From a virus, in the IMG/VR virus record IMGVR_UViG_3300025012_000055, positions 1 to 64,000 of that record: 64,000 nt of DNA, one strand, 5' to 3'. Below are positions 5,346 to 60,308 of the stretch, in pieces (positions within the stretch are counted from its first letter, which is position 1; the number at the start of each line of letters is the position of its first letter). A model generated the notes under the pieces. The model did no database searches and was not told the DNA's origin. It worked only from the letters and a program-made list of their open reading frames with translations. The translations under genes and the position numbers were made by a program.

Positions 5346-5367
5346 TGGTTTTAATCTTATTTTCATA

Positions 5368-5946
5368 TTATTTTATTATATCCCATTCACCTTCTTTATT
5401 TTTCATTTGAAATTTTCCTTTAATATTATATATCTGATAAGGAAATTCATTCATCCAGAATAATTCTTTTCCAAAATATACATCCCCAACATTATTTGTG
5501 AAATTAACGGAATTAATGTTAAACCATATAATTGAAGTTAACCATACATTATCTTTATTATTAAATATAATATTATTTCCCACCCCTTTAAGAAAAGGGA
5601 AATATACATAACCATCATTATTAAACTTAATATTATTTCCCATTTCTTTAAGAGAAGGTAAATCTACATAACCATTATTATTAAACACAATATTATTTCC
5701 CACCCCTTTAAGAAAAGGGAAATATACATAATCATCATTATTAAACACAACATTATCTGGAATATATGTTATTAATTTAGAATATATATTCTTACCACCA
5801 ATAATAATCTTATTGTCATTATTTATTTCATAAGAAATATTTTCCTGATTTAATATATCAATAAATTCTTTTCTTTTTGAATCTGATTCTAAAATAATAT
5901 TTTCAATTAATCTTTTAAATTGACTTTCTGTGATTATTATTTTCAT
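5368..5946 (-). CDS. Repeat protein with N-terminal ITESQFKRLIE motif
   Basis: 192 residues. After an N-terminal MKIIITESQFKRLIE helix comes a run of about 20-residue repeats built on NNIVFNNxGYVxLPxLKxMG (residues 66-145), which look like solenoid or beta-helix repeats. It is a paralogue of the gene at 48952, which lacks the N-terminal motif and has fewer repeats. The N-terminal motif recurs in the genes at 9910 and 61298 and ends in LIE, a form compatible with T4-type prohead protease sites. It starts 2 bases after the big tail gene ends. Possibly a virion protein; function unknown. Confidence 0.65.
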   Translation of the reverse strand: MKIIITESQFKRLIENIILESDSKRKEFIDILNQENISYEINNDNKIIIGGKNIYSKLITYIPDNVVFNNDDYVYFPFLKGVGNNIVFNNNGYVDLPSLKEMGNNIKFNNDGYVYFPFLKGVGNNIIFNNKDNVWLTSIIWFNINSVNFTNNVGDVYFGKELFWMNEFPYQIYNIKGKFQMKNKEGEWDIIK

Positions 5947-5947
5947 A

Positions 5948-8425
5948 TTAATCTATATGTTTACTTGAAAAGTTTGATTGCCAAAATCCTTCAGTATCAA
6001 CCAATGTCCCAGTATTTCCTTCTCTAACTGGTATATTCTTTCCTTCTATACAAAAAGTACATATTGAACCACTAATATCTTTTGGTTGATCTTCTTGAAA
6101 TTCTGATCCATCATTTATTCCATGCCTATAAACAAATTTTTGTCTGTTAAATACTGTATTTCTATATCTTTCACCGTTTTCCCATATTGTTGTTGATGGG
6201 ATTAACTGATCAATTAAATCAAACCAATAATTTTCCAATAAATCAATATATTTAATTACCTTTGGTACATTTAATGCTTTACTTTGTAAATTACCTTCAG
6301 TTTGACTTCTGTAATAATAATCAAAATAAAGTTTTCTTAATGTGGGATATCCACCACCCTTATTATCTGAAATTACTTTTCTGTTTTTTACATCAATAAA
6401 ATGAGAATATATTTTATTTATATATTGTGCAAAACTTAAATTGGCAACATTAAATTTTGTATATTTATCATCAGGATATGGATATGTTCTACCAGTGGGA
6501 GAAACTGGATAATCAAAAGATAATTTATTATAATTATAAACATCACATTCTATTGCTTTTGCAACATCCAAATTCATATCAACTTCTTTTGTGTTTAATA
6601 TTAATTCACTTCTTCCAGAATAATCTGCTTGTCTTGTTAAACTTCTATTATAAACTCTATGTTCATTATCTTTAGTTGAATAAACCCATGATTTTTTATC
6701 ATCTGGTACTTTATTAAGTTGAAATCCTGCTAATATATATGGTTCAAAGTAAGATTGTCCCCCATCATATGGTCCAAGATGAATTCCAACTGATTGATCT
6801 TTTTTGCCTAAAACATCAATTTCTTCTCTCCATCTTCCAAATTGTTGAAAATAATAATCTGGTTTATTCTCAGGTATTGCAGGAAATCCCTCATCATCAA
6901 AAAAATCTGTTAATCCAGATAATGATTGATCGTTTGGATTTATTTTACCAGAGACAAGATAAACATGTTCATTTATATCAATTAAACAATCTGGGGCCCC
7001 AATAAATTTAAGTAAAAATTCCAATACTTTTCTTGTCCCTTTTGATTTAAATAACCAATTAGTATTTAATACAATTCTTCTCCATAATTCAATATCCATC
7101 TCAGCTGGCGTGAAATTTTTTGAATGACCACTAAAAGATATTCTACTACTTGTTTTACCTAAAAATGAAGTTAATAAATCTTCTTCTCCAACACTTTTTA
7201 AAACCCCCCATCCTAATGTTTTTGCTAAATTTTTAACTAATTGATCTGGAATATTTTCTTTTTTATCATAAGTAATTCTATTGGCAAATGCAAGACCATC
7301 AATAAATGTTTTAACCTCATCAAATTCTCTACCATAAATTTTTAATAGTTTATCTATTTTTCCATCAGGAGTATCAAATTCTTTAAGCGCTGTTGTTGTA
7401 AAAAACCTTGCAACTAAATTTGTTTTATATGCGTCTTGCTTATCTGCCAGTAACAATAAACTTTCCAAATAATCTTTATAATTGTCTGTATCAATATCTA
7501 AATTATATCCATCTTTTACTGGCCAAGTAAATTGTTTGTTGATTAATACAATTCTACCACTTTCAGTTTCTATTGGGTCTTGAAATTCTGCAGTAAATTT
7601 TGGTTTTACTTCTCTGTTTAAAACATAACTTTCAAAATTACCTAAACCATTAAAAAATTCTTCAACATGTTGATATCTGGGTTTTATGTGATAAGTTGTT
7701 GATAGTGTAGTAGTTGTACCAGTAATGGAGGGAAAAACATTTCCTTTTGTTTTAAACCATAAATTTTTATCTGTGTCTGTACTTCCTGTAAATGAAATAA
7801 CATCAAATTCTTTATTATTACTATTTAAAACAGAATATCTTTTAAAATATTTTTTAATATTTTTAAAATTCTTTTCAGATTTGAAATCCGTTAAATTTGA
7901 TAAAGAATCAAAGGTTTCCAATGATTTTGAATCTTCTCTATAAATTAATTGAAATTTATTCTCAATAAAATCTGTGGGGGTTCTAAATGTTGCCTCATCT
8001 AATGTCTGATTATAAGAATAATTTAAAACAGTATTTTTTGTTTCTGTATTCTGGATATTATTTAGATATAATGCACCAGGGAATTTAAGTATAATTTCAG
8101 AAAGTGATACTCTAATAAATTCTCTGAGTGAACCAAAATAAGCATAATTTGATATATTACTTCTATCAATATTAAGAACTACATCTATATTATTTGAAAG
8201 TAGGGTTTTAGCTTCTTTTACATCATTTAATTTTAATGATTCTAATGTGATAGCAGTTGAAAAAATTCCAAGTTTCCCCTCATATTTTTTAGATACTTTG
8301 GGAGATAAATCTGTGGTTGTGGAAAAATTACCAATCTGTGATATTATACTACCTTCTGTAACTTTAAAATTAATTAAATTTGAATTATCAATATTTTTTC
8401 CTACTATCTTTGTCTTTTTTGCCAT
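5948..8425 (-). CDS. Large baseplate/tail structural protein
   Basis: 825 residues. Around residue 400-480 it has NLAKTLGWGVL, then WRRIVLNTNWLFKSKGTRKVLEFLLKFIG. The pattern 'NLA..LGW ... KGT..vle..l..iGaP' resembles the tail-protein I family of baseplates. Preceded by a late-type ATATTTATA motif and located in the virion block, it is most likely a baseplate wedge or peripheral protein. Family assignment is by motif only. Confidence 0.6.
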   Translation of the reverse strand: MAKKTKIVGKNIDNSNLINFKVTEGSIISQIGNFSTTTDLSPKVSKKYEGKLGIFSTAITLESLKLNDVKEAKTLLSNNIDVVLNIDRSNISNYAYFGSLREFIRVSLSEIILKFPGALYLNNIQNTETKNTVLNYSYNQTLDEATFRTPTDFIENKFQLIYREDSKSLETFDSLSNLTDFKSEKNFKNIKKYFKRYSVLNSNNKEFDVISFTGSTDTDKNLWFKTKGNVFPSITGTTTTLSTTYHIKPRYQHVEEFFNGLGNFESYVLNREVKPKFTAEFQDPIETESGRIVLINKQFTWPVKDGYNLDIDTDNYKDYLESLLLLADKQDAYKTNLVARFFTTTALKEFDTPDGKIDKLLKIYGREFDEVKTFIDGLAFANRITYDKKENIPDQLVKNLAKTLGWGVLKSVGEEDLLTSFLGKTSSRISFSGHSKNFTPAEMDIELWRRIVLNTNWLFKSKGTRKVLEFLLKFIGAPDCLIDINEHVYLVSGKINPNDQSLSGLTDFFDDEGFPAIPENKPDYYFQQFGRWREEIDVLGKKDQSVGIHLGPYDGGQSYFEPYILAGFQLNKVPDDKKSWVYSTKDNEHRVYNRSLTRQADYSGRSELILNTKEVDMNLDVAKAIECDVYNYNKLSFDYPVSPTGRTYPYPDDKYTKFNVANLSFAQYINKIYSHFIDVKNRKVISDNKGGGYPTLRKLYFDYYYRSQTEGNLQSKALNVPKVIKYIDLLENYWFDLIDQLIPSTTIWENGERYRNTVFNRQKFVYRHGINDGSEFQEDQPKDISGSICTFCIEGKNIPVREGNTGTLVDTEGFWQSNFSSKHID

Positions 8426-11471: not shown

Positions 11472-11948
11472 ATGAAAAACAAAATGATAACAAATCAAAC
11501 ATTAAACGCAATTAAAGAAAACATAATTAATGGGGCCAAAGAAAATTTTATTAATGATGGATACCTTGCCCCTGTTGCCATTATTCTTCCCAAAATAGGC
11601 GAATTGAAAATGATTCTTTTAAATCTCTCCACCATTGAAGAAAAAGAAAAAACAGAGTTATTTCTTAAAGAATATGTTATAAATAATAATGCTTTAATGA
11701 TAATGACCATTTCGGAATGCTGGATGAAAAAAATGGATAAAAAAGAATTTGAACTTATTGGGGGGTCATTAAAAAATGTTGAGGATAAAACAGAGGGGGT
11801 TATTATTACATTTGAAACTGCATTTACCTGTGAATTAATTCAATTTGAAATTGATAAAGAAAAACAAATTTTACATAATGAAATGAGAAGCACAGAATAT
11901 GAAGGTAGATTTTCAAATATTCTCAAAAAACCAATAAATGAAAATTAA
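11472..11948 (+). CDS. Conserved-looking hypothetical protein
   Basis: 158 residues, mixed alpha/beta; a second Met (residue 5) could be the start. It has its own host-type promoter and is an isolated plus-strand gene inside the minus-strand virion block, suggesting early or middle expression. No family recognised. Confidence 0.6.
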   Translation: MKNKMITNQTLNAIKENIINGAKENFINDGYLAPVAIILPKIGELKMILLNLSTIEEKEKTELFLKEYVINNNALMIMTISECWMKKMDKKEFELIGGSLKNVEDKTEGVIITFETAFTCELIQFEIDKEKQILHNEMRSTEYEGRFSNILKKPINEN

Positions 11949-11994
11949 TCAATAGTTAAATTGGAAAGAAAATAAATGATATTGGGATTTTAAA

Positions 11995-12058
11995 TGCTTA
12001 TTTTTTTAACTATTATTTATTTAAATCATCCACTATATAAATACCTGTTAAATAAGCA
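11995..12058. repeat. Long inverted repeat in a convergent intergenic region
   Basis: TGCTTATTT...TTAAC at 11995-12010 is complementary to GTTAAATAAGCA at 12047-12058, apart from a small T bulge. It lies between the ends of two converging genes and may act as a processing or termination hairpin. Little else is seen between 11949 and 12089. Confidence 0.4.
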
Positions 12059-24436: not shown

Positions 24437-25348
24437 TTACAAAATATTTTTATTATATTCTTCAATTAATTGTTTTAATATTTGATTCCTATTGTCAAAT
24501 CTTTTAAATAATTCTTCTTTTGTTATGGAACACTTATCATGTTTGCCAATATTTTTCTTATACGGTAACATATCAAGATTAACAATATCACCAATAATAT
24601 AAATAGGAATATTTTCTTTAAATCCGGCATTTCTTGAAAACATATGTTCTAACCAATATCCTCTGTTTGCCCTTTTTTCATTATTTTTTAATAAATATAA
24701 AGGCTGAGTTCTACTATAACTATCAATTCTTTTTCTATATAATTTAAAATCTGGCATTTGTTTAATATATTTATCATATGGTATTCCAGTTACTGACTCT
24801 ATCATTTGTATTCTATTATTATAATTTTTATTTCCATATTTTTTTAACTTTGTTTCCTCTGATTGTTCTCTATTATTATAATTTTTATCACCATGATTTT
24901 TTAATTTTGTTTGTTTGGATTTTGTTTTAACTTCTTCTAATTGAGCAGGGAGTTTCCCATCATATTTTTCTAAACAATTTTTTTGATAAGTTTCAACCAT
25001 TTCATTCCACCTTCCTTCCATTGTTTTTAAAAATTGTACTCTATTATTAAATGTCTCATTATCATAGCGTTCTTTTTTAGTTAATTTACATTTAAAAGAT
25101 GAGCATTTTGGAGAACAAGAATATTTACCATATCTATTGATACTTTGAATATAAGTATTATATCTTATTTCTTTTTCTTTTTTACAAATATCACATTTAA
25201 CTTTTATTTTTGATGGACTTTTTTCCATTAAATGTTCAGGCAAAACTTCTATTCTATCTTTTACATTAACACTATATCCCAATTTTATAAAATGATACAA
25301 ATTTGTAGAAACAATTCCTATTTCTATTTTTTGATTTGGTATAATCAT
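24437..25348 (-). CDS. Homing endonuclease-like protein (paralogue of 59295)
   Basis: 303 residues. Order: N-terminal MIIPNQKIEIGIV...LGY, a zinc knuckle KVKCDICKKEKEI...CSPKCSSF, two KLKNHGDKNYNNR / KLKKYGNKNYNNR repeats, and a C-terminal nuclease-like segment YWLEHMFSRNAGFKENI...GDIVNLDMLPYKKNIGKHDKCSI. The 59295 paralogue has HIDHKFS where this has WLEHMFS, so the usual HNH Asp-His is here Glu-His. The 5' UTR carries a conserved pseudoknot-like structure (25365-25481). Confidence 0.75.
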   Translation of the reverse strand: MIIPNQKIEIGIVSTNLYHFIKLGYSVNVKDRIEVLPEHLMEKSPSKIKVKCDICKKEKEIRYNTYIQSINRYGKYSCSPKCSSFKCKLTKKERYDNETFNNRVQFLKTMEGRWNEMVETYQKNCLEKYDGKLPAQLEEVKTKSKQTKLKNHGDKNYNNREQSEETKLKKYGNKNYNNRIQMIESVTGIPYDKYIKQMPDFKLYRKRIDSYSRTQPLYLLKNNEKRANRGYWLEHMFSRNAGFKENIPIYIIGDIVNLDMLPYKKNIGKHDKCSITKEELFKRFDNRNQILKQLIEEYNKNIL

Positions 25349-25364
25349 AATTCTTTTTTTAAAT

Positions 25365-25481
25365 AAAACCCCCCACTATATCCATTGAACACTTTGCTAA
25401 CATAGATAGATAGGAAAGATGAATATAAGAAGGGTTTTTAATATGTTATTTTCACCTATGTTTTTATTAAAAGTGTTCAAT
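25365..25481 (-). promoter_or_regulatory. Pseudoknot-like 5' UTR element of homing endonuclease
   Basis: On the minus strand: P1 is ATTGAACACTTT (25481-25470) with AAAGTGTTCAAT (25395-25384). P2 is AACATAG (25462-25456) with CTATGTT (25405-25399). The loop has ATATTAAAAACCC (25444-25432), whose AAAACCC can pair with GGGTTTT (25371-25365) beyond P1. The paralogue at 59295 has the same order with different stem sequences. Confidence 0.65.
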
Positions 25482-25495
25482 ATATAAATATCATC
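25480..25495 (-). promoter_or_regulatory. Late-type promoter motif
   Basis: Minus-strand GATATTTATATATTG directly before the structured UTR of the homing endonuclease gene. Confidence 0.45.
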
Positions 25496-48951: not shown

Positions 48952-49407
48952 ATGAAAACTATTCTAAAAACAAAAAGACAAGAATTCATTGATATTTTAA
49001 ATAAAGAAGATATTCCTTATAAAATAACTCCCCCCTTTCGGGGGGTTATGAAAAACAATAAATCCTCCCCCTCGGGAGGTTATAAGATTATTATTGATGG
49101 TTCTTATATAAATTCTAAATTAATAACATATATTCCAGATAATGTTGAATTTAATAATAAAAGTTTTGTAAGTTTATCTTCTCTTAAAAAAATGGGAAAT
49201 AATATTAAGTTTAATAATAAGCATAATGTGTGGCTAATTTCAATTTTTTATTTTAATACATTTTCTGTTAATTTCACAAATAATATTCATGATGTATTTT
49301 TTGGAAAAGAAACATACTGGATGAATTTATTTCCTTATGAATTATATAATATTGGGGGAAATTTTCATATAATAAATAAAAAAAATGAATATAAAATAAT
49401 AAAATAA
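48952..49407 (+). CDS. Repeat protein, paralogue of 5368, with hairpin-coded insertion
   Basis: 151 residues. KRQEFIDILNKEDIPYKI, LITYIPDNVEFNN and MGNNIKFNN align with the 5368 protein, as does the C-terminal VNFTNNIHDVFFGKETYWMN. It lacks the ITESQFKRLIE N-terminus. Between residues 25 and 45 it has an extra TPPFRGVMKNNKSSPSGG coded by two GC-rich hairpins (49030-49079), absent from the paralogue. Function unknown. Confidence 0.6.
   Translation: MKTILKTKRQEFIDILNKEDIPYKITPPFRGVMKNNKSSPSGGYKIIIDGSYINSKLITYIPDNVEFNNKSFVSLSSLKKMGNNIKFNNKHNVWLISIFYFNTFSVNFTNNIHDVFFGKETYWMNLFPYELYNIGGNFHIINKKNEYKIIK
49030..49079. repeat. Two tandem GC-rich palindromes inside a gene
   Basis: CCCCCC TTTC GGGGGG (49030-49045) and CCTCCC CCTC GGGAGG (49064-49079), both followed by TTAT, stand out in very AT-rich DNA. 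They are in frame and add about 18 residues to the 48952 product. Confidence 0.85.
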
Positions 49408-49658
49408 AAAAAACTATAAAATTAGAAGTCGGTAAAACATATAAAAATTATGGTGTGTATCTTGGAATTACCACAGTTTACGAATATAGTGGAAAAGTAC
49501 ATGAAGAACATAGATTTAGGTCTAATGAAACTGAAAATGATTTTGATGGATTTGATAATATTCCAGTGATTAAAGAAATCAGGACAGATGATGAAAAGAT
49601 ATTGAAGAGAATAGAACATGAAAATCAAATTAATTATAAAAAAAATCATTATAAATAA
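49404..49658 (+). CDS. Small hypothetical protein with unclear start
   Basis: 84 codons if it starts at ATA 49404 (IKKTIKLEVGKTYKNYGVYL), 67 if at GTG 49455. The N-terminal stretch from 49413 reads like a normal protein start, so either ATA serves as start or an ATG was lost by one base. It contains a GKTYKNYG barrel-like start and YSGKVHEEHRF. Function unknown. Confidence 0.45.
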   Translation: MKKTIKLEVGKTYKNYGVYLGITTVYEYSGKVHEEHRFRSNETENDFDGFDNIPVIKEIRTDDEKILKRIEHENQINYKKNHYK

Positions 49659-54676: not shown

Positions 54677-54748
54677 ATGGTGTTAGTTCAGAGGCAGAAC
54701 GCTACATTTGGGATGTAGAGGTCGAGATATCATAATTCTCACACCATA
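54677..54748 (+). tRNA. tRNA-Pro (UGG)
   Basis: Acceptor ATGGTGT/ACACCAT pairs fully; D stem GTTC/GAAC; anticodon stem CTACA/TGTAG with loop TTTGGGA. The T-arm is degenerate (GAGAT/TTCTC, loop ATCATAA). No CCA encoded. Confidence 0.8.
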
Positions 54749-54765
54749 CAAAAAAATTAAAAAAT

Positions 54766-54839
54766 ATTCCAGTATCCCAATTGGTAGAGGATATAGTATT
54801 AGAAACTATAAAGTGAGAGTTCGAATCTCTCCTGGAGTA
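54766..54839 (+). tRNA. tRNA with UAG anticodon (Leu expected)
   Basis: Acceptor ATTCCAG/CTGGAGT; anticodon stem ATAGT/ACTAT, loop ATTAGAA; T-arm GAGAG TTCGAAT CTCTC. The variable loop is short, unlike normal tRNA-Leu. One base separates it from the next tRNA. Confidence 0.75.
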
Positions 54840-54840
54840 C

Positions 54841-54914
54841 TACCGGATCTTCTAATTTTGGCAGGAAAGCACCCTTTGAAGGTGATAATATAGGTTAGAT
54901 CCCTACTCTGGTAA
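54841..54914 (+). tRNA. tRNA-Gln (UUG)
   Basis: Acceptor TACCGGA/TCTGGTA (one G.U); D stem TTCT/GGAA; anticodon stem CACC/GGTG with loop CTTTGAA; T-loop TTAGATC. Confidence 0.78.
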
Positions 54915-54945
54915 CTACAAAAATTAAAAAAATATTAGATAATAC

Positions 54946-54982
54946 TTGTTTATTTCAATTATTTTACTTACCTTTGTATTCT
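54946..54982 (+). promoter_or_regulatory. Host-type promoter
   Basis: TTG at 54946-54948, 20-base spacer, TACCTTTG at 54969-54976. Confidence 0.8.
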
Positions 54983-55018
54983 AAATATCTGAATTAATAA
55001 CTTAAAAACCTAAAAAAA

Positions 55019-55225
55019 ATGAAAGATAAACCACAAAAGCCGAAATTGAATACTACTGTTGTTGGCGGTAGTTTTTATTGGGTTAGACCATTTCAAGGAG
55101 ATGAATTTGAACCTGCAAAGGCTAGAGATAGATATGAGAATGGAGAGCTATATTTCTGCTTTACAAACGGTAGTGTGTTGGAAGTAGAGCGCGCTTGGGA
55201 GGTTGAGCCATTAAATTTCAGCTAA
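55019..55225 (+). CDS. Small hypothetical protein (less AT-rich cassette)
   Basis: 68 residues: VVGGSFYWVRPFQGDEFEPA, then ARDRYENGELYFCFTNGSVL. Codon use is visibly less AT-rich than neighbours. Its stop lies in a repeated intergenic element (GCTAACGG...TTACG). Reads like a small phage/plasmid protein of unknown function. Confidence 0.6.
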   Translation: MKDKPQKPKLNTTVVGGSFYWVRPFQGDEFEPAKARDRYENGELYFCFTNGSVLEVERAWEVEPLNFS

Positions 55226-55578
55226 CGGTTTTGGGATTGCTGTCAGGTTTCTTACGGATTAACAACTAAAATATAATTATATGAACGAAGAATTAAGAGT
55301 GATATCACAAAGCTATTGCGGAATGACACCGAAAGATAAAGGATGCAAAACTTGGGCTGAGATGCAACAGAAAATGGCAGATGAATTGGAATGTGTAGTA
55401 AAAAATTATATTGTCCAAGCAAATGTTAGCGGACACTTGTGCCAATGTGGAAATCCGATTGCCAGAACGGAGTGCGATGATTGTTTAGACAATAGAATTA
55501 GATGCAAGTTAGAAAATTAGGTACAATTTCCGCTAACGCATCGGAGATTTATGAAGGATTTTTTACGACTTAAACTAC
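55208..55578. repeat. Repeated intergenic element flanking the 55281 gene
   Basis: 55216-55275 and 55519-55580 share ATTTC-GCTAACG, a GG..ATT middle, TTACG and a CTA-AA end. Copy 1 sits between the 55019 and 55281 genes, copy 2 between the 55281 and 55603 genes. This suggests a modular cassette. Confidence 0.5.
55281..55520 (+). CDS. Small Cys-rich hypothetical protein
   Basis: 79 residues. C-terminal zinc-ribbon-like CQCGNPIARTECDDC. The N-terminal half has SYCGMTPKDKGCKTWAEMQQ. Same less AT-rich composition as the two flanking genes. Function unknown. Confidence 0.6.
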   Translation: MNEELRVISQSYCGMTPKDKGCKTWAEMQQKMADELECVVKNYIVQANVSGHLCQCGNPIARTECDDCLDNRIRCKLEN

Positions 55579-55602
55579 AAATTTAAAAATATAAAAAACA
55601 CA

Positions 55603-55845
55603 ATGACAAAAGAAGAATTGATTACAAAGCAACAACTGGAAATAGAGCAGTATCAAATTGCAATAGAAGAAAACAAAAAACTGCTGAAAAAGATAAAACT
55701 AAATTTCATTGCGATAGGGATGCCGTTAAATGATAACCTATTGCAATTTGATAAGAAGCAGATAAAATGGTGCTTGGAAACATTAGAAATGATTGAACAA
55801 ATTAACTGTACTGTGCTTGACTATGAGGGTGTGTGGGCGGGTTAA
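55603..55845 (+). CDS. Small coiled-coil hypothetical protein
   Basis: 80 residues, N-terminal coiled coil (KQQLEIEQYQIAIEENKKLL), then a short globular part. Third gene of the cassette. Function unknown. Confidence 0.55.
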   Translation: MTKEELITKQQLEIEQYQIAIEENKKLLKKIKLNFIAIGMPLNDNLLQFDKKQIKWCLETLEMIEQINCTVLDYEGVWAG

Positions 55846-55882
55846 AAAGTTTGCGTATAAGTAGGGGATTGTCGCAATATTA

Positions 55883-55919
55883 TTGATTTTTTAAAATATT
55901 TTACTTATATTTGTACTTT
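55883..55919 (+). promoter_or_regulatory. Host-type promoter of tRNA array 2
   Basis: TTG at 55883-55885, 20-base spacer, TATATTTG at 55906-55913, 26 bases before the leader ORF. Confidence 0.75.
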
Positions 55920-55938
55920 GAAACTATTTATTAAGAAA

Positions 55939-56019
55939 ATGAAAAACTGGTTAAACATATCAATTCATAGTAATAGTCGTAATATTATACGACCTGGAAG
56001 GGGTATGTTTATACAATAA
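55939..56019 (+). CDS. Leader peptide of tRNA array 2 (candidate attenuator)
   Basis: 26 codons, MKN start, TAA at 56017-56019. Residues 3-18 are NWLNISIHSNSRNIIR. Thirteen of its 25 post-start codons are read by the seven downstream tRNAs: AAC/AAT (Asn), TGG (Trp), TCA (Ser UGA), ATT (Ile), CAT (His), AGT (Ser GCU), CGT/CGA (Arg). Codons 8-16 (55960-55986) are all cognate, nine in a row. The later segment AAGGGGT (55998-56004) is complementary to ACCCCTT (56044-56050) of the terminator 5' arm, so it can form an antiterminator when the ribosome stalls upstream. Confidence 0.75.
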   Translation: MKNWLNISIHSNSRNIIRPGRGMFIQ

Positions 56020-56040
56020 TCATTTTTAAAAGATATATAA

Positions 56041-56075
56041 AAAACCCCTTGGATTAAGTTTTTAAGGGGTTTTTT
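56041..56075 (+). terminator. Intrinsic terminator/attenuator before tRNA array 2
   Basis: AAAACCCCTT (56041-56050) and AAGGGGTTTT (56064-56073) form a 10-bp stem followed by more T. It separates the leader ORF from tRNA-Asn. Confidence 0.9.
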
Positions 56076-56080
56076 AATTT

Positions 56081-56154
56081 TGGTCTGTAACTCAGAAGTT
56101 TAGAGTGCCAAGCCGTTAACTTGGAAGCCGGGATGGCAGAATTCCCCAGACCAG
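56081..56154 (+). tRNA. tRNA-Asn (GUU)
   Basis: Acceptor TGGTCTG/CAGACCA; D stem ACTC/GAGT; anticodon stem CCAAG/CTTGG with loop CCGTTAA, so position 33 is C rather than the near-universal U. T-arm GGGAT/TTCCC with odd loop GGCAGAA; discriminator G. Confidence 0.75.
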
Positions 56155-56170
56155 CTGGAAATATAAAAAA

Positions 56171-56254
56171 GGAAAAGGACTGGCATGGACGAAGAGATAG
56201 TCTTGAAAACTATTGTGTGTAAAAACATCGTGAGTTCGATTCTCACCTTTTCCG
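56171..56254 (+). tRNA. tRNA-Ser (UGA)
   Basis: Acceptor GGAAAAG/CTTTTCC; anticodon stem ATAGT/ACTAT, loop CTTGAAA; long variable arm; T-arm GTGAG TTCGATT CTCAC; discriminator G as expected for Ser. Confidence 0.88.
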
Positions 56255-56268
56255 CTTTTTTAAAAAAC

Positions 56269-56339
56269 AGGTTCTTGGTGTAATGGCAGCATCTGAAATT
56301 CCAAACTTCAGGGTATGGGTTCGAATCCTATAAAACTTG
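56269..56339 (+). tRNA. tRNA-Trp (CCA)
   Basis: AGGTTCT/AAAACTT acceptor with one mismatch; anticodon loop TTCCAAA; T-arm ATGGG TTCGAAT CCTAT; discriminator G as in bacterial tRNA-Trp. Its last base is shared with the next tRNA. Confidence 0.75.
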
Positions 56340-56428
56340 CGGAAAATAAACCAATCAGGGTATTGGGCCTATTTGCTAAATAGTGCGTTCTGTAAAAAGA
56401 ATGTGTTTCAAATACTCTGTCCTCCGCA
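56339..56428 (+). tRNA. tRNA-Ser (GCU), imperfect
   Basis: GCGGA/TCCGC closes the acceptor but the inner pairs are weak; anticodon stem CTAT/ATAG with loop TTGCTAA; variable arm GTTCT/AGAAT; T-loop TTCAAAT with a poor stem. May be degenerate. Confidence 0.6.
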
Positions 56429-56437
56429 AAATTATAT

Positions 56438-56510
56438 TGACCAGTAGCTCAATTGGTGGAGCAACATTCTGATGAAATGAAGGTCGAAGGTTCAAATCCT
56501 TCCTGGTCAA
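56438..56510 (+). tRNA. tRNA-Ile (GAU)
   Basis: Acceptor TGACCAG/CTGGTCA; D stem GCTC/GAGC; anticodon stem CATT/AATG with loop CTGATGA; T-arm GAAGG TTCAAAT CCTTC; discriminator A. Confidence 0.9.
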
Positions 56511-56519
56511 CAAAAAACT

Positions 56520-56592
56520 ATTTTCTTAGTTTAACTGGATAAAATATTTGGCTACGAACCAAAAGATGAGAGTTCGAATCTTTCAGAAAATA
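56520..56592 (+). tRNA. tRNA-Arg (ACG)
   Basis: Acceptor ATTTTCT/AGAAAAT; anticodon stem TTTGG/CCAAA with loop CTACGAA; T-arm GAGAG TTCGAAT CTTTC; discriminator A. Needs A34-to-I editing to read CGC/CGA. Confidence 0.9.
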
Positions 56593-56607
56593 CATTATAA
56601 TTAATAT

Positions 56608-56682
56608 GGTGCTATTGTTGTAAATTGGTGAGCATAGAAAACTGTGAATTTTCAGGTAAAGGTTCAATTCCTTTATGGCACC
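56608..56682 (+). tRNA. tRNA-His (GUG)
   Basis: Anticodon stem GAAAA/TTTTC with loop CTGTGAA; T-arm AAAGG TTCAATT CCTTT. Acceptor GTGCTAT/ATGGCAC with an encoded G-1 (56608) facing C73 (56682), the HisRS identity pair. Confidence 0.88.
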
Positions 56683-56690
56683 CAATAATC

Positions 56691-57383
56691 TTAATTTAAT
56701 AATTCAAAAACTTCTTTTATTCCTTCACTAGCTTTTTTATTAATATAAGTAATTTCCATTCCAATTTTACTTAAACTTTTAACTGGGTTTGGATCAATAA
56801 AAAATACTTCACAAGATAATTTTATATAAGTTAACATTTGAAAACAATAATGGATAAATAAAGAAGTTCCAATTATTATTAAATAATCACATTTTTCAAT
56901 TGTTTTATATGATTCTTCAATATTACAAGGATATTCCCCAAACCAAACAACATGAGGTCTTAATTGTGAGCCATTTTCACATTTATCACCCAACTTTATA
57001 TCATTATAACCACAATCATATATTAAATCTTCATCTGATGAGCTTTGAGATTTTGTAAGTTCCCCATGAATGTGAATAACATTTGAAGAGCCACCCCTTT
57101 CATGTAAATTATCAACATTTTGAGTTATCACGGTAACATCAAAATTATTTTCAAGTTCTGCAATTAATTTATGCGCCAGATTTGGTTTTACATTTTCCAG
57201 TTGCCTTCTTCTTTCGTTATAAAAATCTAAAACTTTTTGTTTATCTTTGTGCCATGCACTTATTGTTGCAACATCATCTATTTTATGGTTTAACCATAAA
57301 CCATTTTTTCCTGTCCTGAATGTTGGGATGCCAGATTCCTCACTTACGCCCGCACCAGTAAAAACAACTATTTTCTTTTTCAT
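56691..57383 (-). CDS. Sirtuin (Sir2/CobB-type NAD-dependent deacylase)
   Basis: 230 residues, CobB size. VVFTGAGVSEESGIPTFR (NAD site), FYNERRRQLENVKPNLAHKL with the Tyr-x-x-Arg of desuccinylase-type sirtuins, TQNVDNLHERGG, catalytic IHIHGEL, then LRPHVVWFGEYP and IGTSLFIHY. The usual four zinc cysteines are not kept (only DKCENG remains of the second pair). It could remove acyl marks from host or phage proteins, or affect NAD-based defence; target unknown. Confidence 0.9.
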   Translation of the reverse strand: MKKKIVVFTGAGVSEESGIPTFRTGKNGLWLNHKIDDVATISAWHKDKQKVLDFYNERRRQLENVKPNLAHKLIAELENNFDVTVITQNVDNLHERGGSSNVIHIHGELTKSQSSSDEDLIYDCGYNDIKLGDKCENGSQLRPHVVWFGEYPCNIEESYKTIEKCDYLIIIGTSLFIHYCFQMLTYIKLSCEVFFIDPNPVKSLSKIGMEITYINKKASEGIKEVFELLN

Positions 57384-59137: not shown

Positions 59138-59152
59138 GTAATATTTATATAA
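59138..59152 (+). promoter_or_regulatory. Late-type promoter motif
   Basis: GTAATATTTATATAA directly before the structured UTR of the 59295 gene. Confidence 0.45.
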
Positions 59153-59153
59153 T

Positions 59154-59268
59154 GAAGTTTGTTTAAATTGGTTAATAAAATAATCAATAAAATATTAAAA
59201 ACCCAATACCATTCATTTTTTTCCAATATTAATCAATTGGCAAACTTCAAAATGGGTGTGAGGGTTTT
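59154..59268 (+). promoter_or_regulatory. Pseudoknot-like 5' UTR element of homing endonuclease
   Basis: P1 GAAGTTTG (59154-59161) with CAAACTTC (59241-59248); P2 TTGGTTAAT (59168-59176) with ATTAATCAA (59228-59236); loop ATATTAAAAACCC (59192-59204), whose AAAACCC can pair with GGGTTTT (59262-59268) downstream of P1. Same order and loop as 25365-25481, with different stems. Confidence 0.65.
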
Positions 59269-59294
59269 ATATTTTTTTAAAAAAATAAACTTAT

Positions 59295-60308
59295 ATGATA
59301 ATAACAAAATTTATAAAAATAAAAATTGGGGGTGGAAATATAAAACATTTTAAAAATTTAGGATATAAAATAAAGCGATTGGATATTATTACAATACCTA
59401 TTGAACACCTACAAAAAGGAAGTCATCAAAAGATTAAAGTAAAATGTGATGTTTGTAATATAGAAAAAGAAATAGAACATAGATTATATTTAAAAAATAC
59501 TAAAAATTATACTATTGAATATTCTTGTTCTCAAAAATGTGCTTATAATATAGGTAAAAATCAAAAAACTTGTTTAAAAAAATATGGAGTGGAATTTACA
59601 TCTCAAATAAAAGAACATAAGGAATTAGTAATAGAAACATGGAATAACAAATCAGAAAAAGAGTTAGAAGAAATAAATAATAAACGTAATAATACTAAAA
59701 AAGAACTTTATGGAGATAAGTATTATAATAATATGGATAAAAATAAACAAACAAAATTAAAAAACCATGGAGATGAAAATTATAATAACAGAAATAAATT
59801 TATAAAAACTTGTTTAAAAAAATATGGAGTAGAAAATGTTTTTCAAGTGGAAGAAATTAAAGAAATATCTAACCAAACTATATTAAACACTTATGGTGTT
59901 AAACATGTCATGCATTCAGATAAAATTAAAAATAAAGCATTTGAAACTAGATATGGAATAACTCATGAAAAATTTATTGAAAGATTATCTGATTTCTTAA
60001 AATATAGAAAAAAAATTTTAAAAATAACAAATCAGCAATTATTATTTTTATTAAAAAATTATAATAAAAGAGGAAATACTAAAATAAAAGGATCTTATCA
60101 TATTGATCATAAATTTTCAATTTTTGAGGGGTTTGTACAAAACATATCTCCACACATTATCGGTAATATAGTTAATCTTGAAATGTTAACTTGGGAAGAT
60201 AATTGTAGTAAACATACTAAGTGTTCATTAACAAAAAAAGAATTGTTTAATTTATATGACAATAAAAATAAAATATTGAAACAACTAGAAAAAGAATATA
60301 AAAAATAA
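59295..60308 (+). CDS. HNH-type homing endonuclease (paralogue of 24437)
   Basis: 337 residues. Order as in the paralogue: N-terminal MIITKFIKIKIG...LGYKIKRLD, zinc knuckle KVKCDVCNIEKEI...CSQKCAYN, repeats KLKNHGDENYNNR and KYGVENVFQ, then HIDHKFSIFEGFVQNI and IVNLEMLTWEDNCSKHTKCS, an HNH-like nuclease with the Asp-His intact. It lies between two late genes and probably spreads by homing. The start is set by alignment with the paralogue. Confidence 0.82.
   Translation: MIITKFIKIKIGGGNIKHFKNLGYKIKRLDIITIPIEHLQKGSHQKIKVKCDVCNIEKEIEHRLYLKNTKNYTIEYSCSQKCAYNIGKNQKTCLKKYGVEFTSQIKEHKELVIETWNNKSEKELEEINNKRNNTKKELYGDKYYNNMDKNKQTKLKNHGDENYNNRNKFIKTCLKKYGVENVFQVEEIKEISNQTILNTYGVKHVMHSDKIKNKAFETRYGITHEKFIERLSDFLKYRKKILKITNQQLLFLLKNYNKRGNTKIKGSYHIDHKFSIFEGFVQNISPHIIGNIVNLEMLTWEDNCSKHTKCSLTKKELFNLYDNKNKILKQLEKEYKK

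Follow-up and report, generated by a model that had tools for sequence, protein, structure and literature searches.

A folded leader RNA with crossing helices precedes homing-endonuclease genes of three families in two T4-like phages

We identified a folded leader RNA of about 120 bases that fronts homing-nuclease genes of three different families, with eight copies (A to H) found in two related T4-like phages. The RNA has four covarying helices in a crossing topology, and the late-promoter-like motif TATTTATA opens all eight copies. In seven of them the start codon of a homing endonuclease lies 16–33 nt past helix P3a, while for copy G only the gene start is present on the contig. The best overall explanation, to which we assign a probability of about 0.5, is that of a cis-acting attenuating leader RNA of free-standing phage homing-endonuclease genes. 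We are fairly confident that the element is a cis-regulatory leader; attenuation as its mechanism is a more tentative proposal.

The stretch of DNA that we analyzed (64,000 nucleotides, hereafter the window) is part of a 91,380-base virus record (G000). The tail sheath and tube proteins encoded there are similar to those of Flavobacterium phage immuto, Microcystis phage Mel-JY01 and Rhodothermus phage RM378, which makes the phage a T4-like myovirus, probably with a host in the Bacteroidota. A segment of 300–600 bp is repeated at 81–89% identity in the window (5360–5960 and 49082–49408) and in L072 (7948–8487), L132 (17098–17576) and L133 (4012–4346), and overlapping contigs of the same phage (G001 and G003) diverge from the contig of the window at the repeats (5364 and ~49830). 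The divergence at these repeats may reflect either a wrong join in the window or recombination of the phage at these places. Elsewhere in the window, a Sir2-family gene (56691–57383, minus strand) adjoins a tRNA gene cluster (54677–56683, plus strand).

Within the window, the initial annotation had described a UTR layout shared by copies A and B, consisting of late motif, P1, P2, a loop, the closing strands of P2 and P1 and a tail complementary to the loop. We found this layout in both copies (Table 1). The described core stands, with a slightly larger span, from the promoter to the start codon (25490–25349 in copy A), and a fourth helix, P3b. From 5' to 3', the element opens with TATTTATA, P1 and P2, after which comes a conserved loop containing the P3a 5' strand. 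A short internal loop separates this strand from the P3b 5' strand, and a UUUCC-like linker leads on to P2', P1' and P3b'. A second short internal loop then precedes P3a', which is followed by a U-rich tract and the AUG, so that P1+P2 and P3a+P3b cross. P1 has 7–14 bp and P2 8–12 bp, the loops L2 and L1 measure 7–12 and 11–23 nt, and in all copies with a measured P3b the distance between P1' and P3b' ranges from −2 to +1 nt. Copies A and B have the same loop, AUAUUAAAAACCC, which is able to pair with the downstream GGGUUUU. A hairpin loop that can pair with downstream sequence, with both helices conserved, is the arrangement of an H-type pseudoknot. The loop sequence (AUAUUUAAAANCCCAAUAYCAUUCAUUUCUUUCC) is far better conserved than P1 and P2 (alignments A4 and A8).

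Table 1. Positions of the leader RNA copies, their parts and the genes behind A and B (window coordinates unless a contig is named)
Feature	Position	Strand	Remarks
Copy A, whole element	25349..25490	-	Late motif, structured leader, to ATG at 25348; R2 99.5 bits, training member
A late-promoter-like motif	25483..25490	-	TATTTATA
A P1 5' strand	25470..25481	-	AUUGAACACUUU, pairs with AAAGUGUUCAAU; predicted +1 4 nt inside
A P2 5' strand	25453..25462	-	AACAUAGGUG, pairs with UAUCUAUGUU
A P3a 5' strand	25429..25438	-	AAAACCCUUC
A P3b 5' strand	25419..25427	-	UAUAUUCAU, pairs with AUGGAUAUA
A P2 3' strand	25399..25408	-	UAUCUAUGUU
A P1 3' strand	25384..25395	-	AAAGUGUUCAAU
A P3b 3' strand	25377..25385	-	Immediately past P1 3' strand
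A P3a 3' strand	25365..25374	-	GGGGGGUUUU, then AUUU
Gene A	24437..25348	-	Homing-endonuclease-like, 303 aa, phrog_5104; HNH-like motif WLEH
Copy B, whole element	59142..59294	+	Late motif, leader, to ATG at 59295
B P1 5' strand	59153..59161	+	UGAAGUUUG, pairs with CAAACUUCA; predicted +1 two bases in
B P2 5' strand	59166..59177	+	AAUUGGUUAAUA, pairs with UAUUAAUCAAUU
B P3a 5' strand	59198..59204	+	AAAACCC
B P3b 5' strand	59211..59219	+	
B P2 3' strand	59227..59238	+	
B P1 3' strand	59241..59249	+	
B P3b 3' strand	59249..59257	+	
B P3a 3' strand	59262..59268	+	GGGUUUU, then AUAUUUUUUU
Gene B	59295..60308	+	Homing-endonuclease-like, 337 aa, DUF7487/phrog_5104, HNH-like HIDH motif
Copy C	11925..12043	-	Orphan, partly decayed; R2 46.1 bits, 4e-6 (training member in part)
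Copy D	G001:38274-38414 (L092)		In a contig overlapping the window, just outside the window; found with a model built from B

The leaders of A and B span 142 and 153 nt, versus mostly 20–46 nt for other late genes in the window. The motif TATTTATA is found before many late-type genes of the phage, mostly at that shorter distance, and likely acts as a late promoter. When the +1 is placed by the T4 spacing (octamer at −13 to −6, with its first base at −13; PMC2988020), it falls 0–4 nt inside P1 in the copies measured and 5 nt inside in C, so the predicted transcript begins within the opening bases of P1. The AUG, at its fixed range beyond P3a in every copy measured, is covered by neither fold. 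Regarding the encoded proteins, the WLEH of nuclease A, compared to the HIDH of B, indicates that the HNH-like active site of A may be degenerate; its leader is intact.

The structural evidence rests on covariation. P1 and P2 have almost no sequence in common between A and B and nevertheless pair, which had been read as covariation from these two copies. That reading was borne out, with 21 of 23 pairs changed on both sides and 92.7% of 178 cells paired, versus 32–43% in slid controls, counts that are inflated because alignment A8 was fitted to the P1/P2 structure. The covariation score of P1/P2 was 0.753, compared to 0.235 in shuffles, and none of 500 shuffles scored as high. Because MAFFT misaligns P1 and P3 when given the whole leader, the P3 counts come from alignments restricted to the P3 strands, which were connected by an artificial linker. 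In this setup, P3b was 98% paired (22–57% in slid controls), with four of seven pairs changed on both sides. P3a was 100% paired, with five double-change cells and two pairs changed on both sides, and its covariation score was reached by one of 500 shuffles. Further homologues with compensatory changes were looked for and exist, and the proposed partners, loop and tail, also covary (AAAACCC/GGGUUUU, AAAAUCCC/GGGAUUUU and AAAACCUU/AAGGUUUU). Free of any column alignment, a strand-swap test in which each 5' strand was paired with the 3' strand of every copy (A, B, D, F, G and H) ranked the native pairing first among all 720 permutations in each helix system, and swapping destroyed both. In most copies, the single-sequence folding energy did not stand out (z −0.7 to −3.9), and it is therefore covariation, not stability, that supports the structure.

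We scanned both strands of the 64 kb with a descriptor composed of late motif, P1, P2 and crossing P3. Copies A and B were the top two matches (67.0 and 62.5), and the other two scored 50 and 47.5. The match at 50 corresponds to copy C, which the descriptor paired wrongly. Sequence homology links copies A, B and C, with local alignment scores of 71–85 versus maxima of 49–66 in 500 shuffles each (for C with A and B, 71 and 85 versus 51 and 66). Copy C sits between convergent genes, without a nuclease gene behind it. It retains the promoter, a P1 with many G-U pairs and an intact P2, while P3 is decayed: AAAAUCCC is present, but the 3' strand reads GGUUUUUU, and P3b is lost. The gene behind copy D encodes a homing endonuclease with GIY-YIG and NUMOD1 domains.

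Copy E was found by a pattern scan of genome contigs, in which it was the only convincing one of 35 matches (L200), on a contig from a MAG labelled Wolfebacteria. This contig carries T4-like tail genes (128 of 162 tail tube residues and 690 of 953 aligned sheath positions identical to those of the window) and is therefore phage sequence. The same MAG, which is mis-binned, also holds copies F, G and H, and all four copies belong to a second T4-like phage. The genes behind E and F are of the phrog_5104/DUF7487 type. Behind G, at a contig end, lies a gene start reading MIITK..., and the family of this gene is unproven because only its start is available. The gene following H matches phrog_1035, an endonuclease VII family (endonuclease-VII-like HNH), and H itself scored 52.5 bits with model R2 (E 2.4e-6), though it is outside the R2 training set. 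Directly upstream of G, L229:175-2379 looks, from its translation, like a T4 gp20-type portal with an intein containing an HNH-like region. Assembly G019 (NVTD01000038.1 and other contigs; GTDB Wolfebacteria NORP124) contains several contigs of a T4-like phage (sheath, tube and many homing endonucleases), a case of mis-binning.

In these two phages, at least seven other homing endonucleases are preceded instead by a short late leader of the ordinary kind or by a small ORF. Related nuclease genes thus manage without the leader, which is not obligatory but a module of some cassettes. The site before the tail tube gene is occupied by different nuclease genes in the two phages, A with the leader and L230:8490 without it. 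We dropped the idea that the leader marks HNH and GIY-YIG but not PD-(D/E)XK-like nucleases, as a GIY-YIG gene resembling that of D (L259) has an ordinary short late leader. A second DUF7487 type, with a PD-(D/E)XK/Vsr-like C-terminus, recurs in both phages without a structured leader, each time after a small DNA-binding-like ORF (L132:13863-15017 minus, L200:1236-2267 minus and L230:1885-3108 plus).

Exact-motif scans of IMG/VR returned only this phage and chance matches. One IMG/VR pattern scan missed D, though the contig of D is listed there; coverage was thus incomplete, and absence is weak evidence. A candidate in L047 (TATTTATA, an 8-bp P1 and AAAACCC/GGGTTTT before a 134-aa ORF) was supported by neither model, and weak R1 matches in relatives (L093–L095) lay around coding sequence, with no R2 recurrence in G014 and G015. 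At E <= 1, R2 found nothing in eight phage genomes (RM378, immuto, PTm5, Mel-JY01, CP21, Lak-A1 and two huge phages). In Tenacibaculum phage PTm5, a stretch next to a baseplate gene (AP019525.1 23734–24177, minus strand; L235) is homing-endonuclease-like but carries no annotation. R2 was likewise negative for 379 further genomes from the G019 phylum and for 396 from the phylum to which a Chitinophagaceae MAG belongs. Lytic phages are rarely present in host genomes, so these host-genome negatives say little. Rfam 15 gave no family above the gathering threshold for the window, and none for D, B and A in a relaxed-threshold search. We found no such motif in the open-access literature. Leader control of phage homing endonucleases is already known; what is new, as far as could be found, is that three nuclease families have in common one covarying RNA whose two helix systems cross.

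How might such an RNA act? With an L2 of 7–12 nt and P3b' joined directly to P1', we estimate that forming all four helices fully and together would be sterically difficult. The loop lengths argue against coexistence of all helices without being proof of a switch, and they make a bistable switch or a partial pseudoknot the likely state of the RNA. When folded before P3a' was complete, D, F, G and H adopted P1+P2, and so did A and B without P3a'. With P3a' present, A, B and E switched to the P3 hairpin, and the two states of D lay within about 1.3 kcal/mol. These predicted folds agree with a switch. We infer that the late promoter within the element would initiate transcription at the base of P1, and that P1 and P2 would fold first as the RNA emerges, holding the P3 5' strand in their loop. 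As the tail emerges, P3b and P3a could form with the held strand. The complete P3b+P3a hairpin, running into the U-rich tract, would then compete with P1+P2 as a leaky transcription attenuator just before the gene, and the late-expressed DNA nuclease would be kept low or conditional. It is this hairpin followed by U residues that suggests attenuation: every copy has 6–8 T in the first nine bases past the G-rich part of P3a (background 8%). The stems are A/U-rich, most U-tracts are interrupted by A, and that of E is weak (UUUUAUAAU). The P3 hairpin has a loop of at least 30 nt, unlike textbook terminators, and a consensus terminator scan, which covered loops of 3–8 only, did not flag the P3 hairpin of B.

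The initial annotation had seen a structured RNA accompanying homing-endonuclease genes, which stands, and had suggested that it might block translation from early read-through transcripts, which our results do not support. Such a block, by sequestration of the start region and relieved in late transcripts, has precedents in I-TevI, I-TevII, I-TevIII, SegB and mobE (PMC2988022; PMC3014915). The T4 and Aeh1 hairpins share with our element a structured 5' leader and a late promoter, here adjoining the structure, before a homing-endonuclease gene of a T4-like phage (PMC2988022). Theirs, however, sequester the RBS, and the T4 late transcript starts inside the hairpin, without its 5' strand (PMC2988022). 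In our case, the predicted start at the first bases of P1 means that the late RNA would carry all the helices, the AUG is free in both folds, which speaks against start-site sequestration, and one homologous fold serves three nuclease families. Moreover, A and H are immediately adjoined upstream by an opposite-strand gene, leaving no nearby read-through. We therefore regard this mode of control as very improbable. The hairpin of seg43(25) in Aeromonas phage 25 likewise precedes the initiation region and leaves it unsequestered (PMC2988022), but it is single, and crossing helices have not been described for it.

An AUG never covered by the structure would also suit a stabiliser or insulator of the late mRNA, in which the first bases, paired in P1 abutting P3b, are shielded from 5'-end-dependent decay without any switching. 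The predicted start just inside P1 and the minimal gap between P1 and P3b fit this reading, which we consider rather unlikely: it leaves unexplained the U-tract and the maintenance of P3b+P3a as a long helix competing with P1+P2, and other late genes lack the element. Alternatively, a phage protein or ligand could bind the loop or the P1/P3 pseudoknot and set translation, as at the T4 gene 32 operator. The strong conservation of the loop fits such binding, and the A/U-rich region before the AUG recalls the T4/T2/RB69 gene 32 leader, an H-type pseudoknot followed by A/U-rich unstructured RNA (PMC3014915). Yet that pseudoknot is small, autoregulates an SSB gene and has no tie to nuclease genes, whereas our element is much larger and its binding partner hypothetical, which makes this an improbable explanation. 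Most far-fetched seems a direct role of the RNA, as a ribozyme, guide-type or mobility RNA, in how the nuclease cassette is processed or spreads. The leader is common to non-homologous nuclease genes and C survives without one, but recombination between leaders can explain the sharing, and Rfam gave no match even at the relaxed threshold. The topology also differs from that of HDV-like ribozymes. Guide-like use was not supported, as the rest of the phage contains no long match to the variable part beyond chance expectation. Among known RNAs of T4-like phages, manA and wcaG of cyanophages are likewise conserved and structured in putative 5' UTRs (PMC2864571), but they go with metabolic genes, and our element matched no Rfam family.

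An attenuating leader remains our preferred reading. A further reading, possible although we would bet against it, is a nuclease-agnostic regulatory cassette: a bistable late-leader riboregulator acquired and exchanged by selfish homing-endonuclease genes of unrelated families, whose two exclusive folds would gate late nuclease expression, perhaps through a phage factor on the conserved loop.

Homing endonucleases must not damage their carrier phage, and those of T4 are restrained by hairpins peculiar to each gene. The predicted helices, together with the natural compensatory variants, make the mechanism of the leader directly testable with reporters. In the two phages studied here, HNH-like, GIY-YIG and endonuclease-VII-like genes all make use of a single conserved RNA motif, suggesting that selfish genes can have their control RNA as a portable module.
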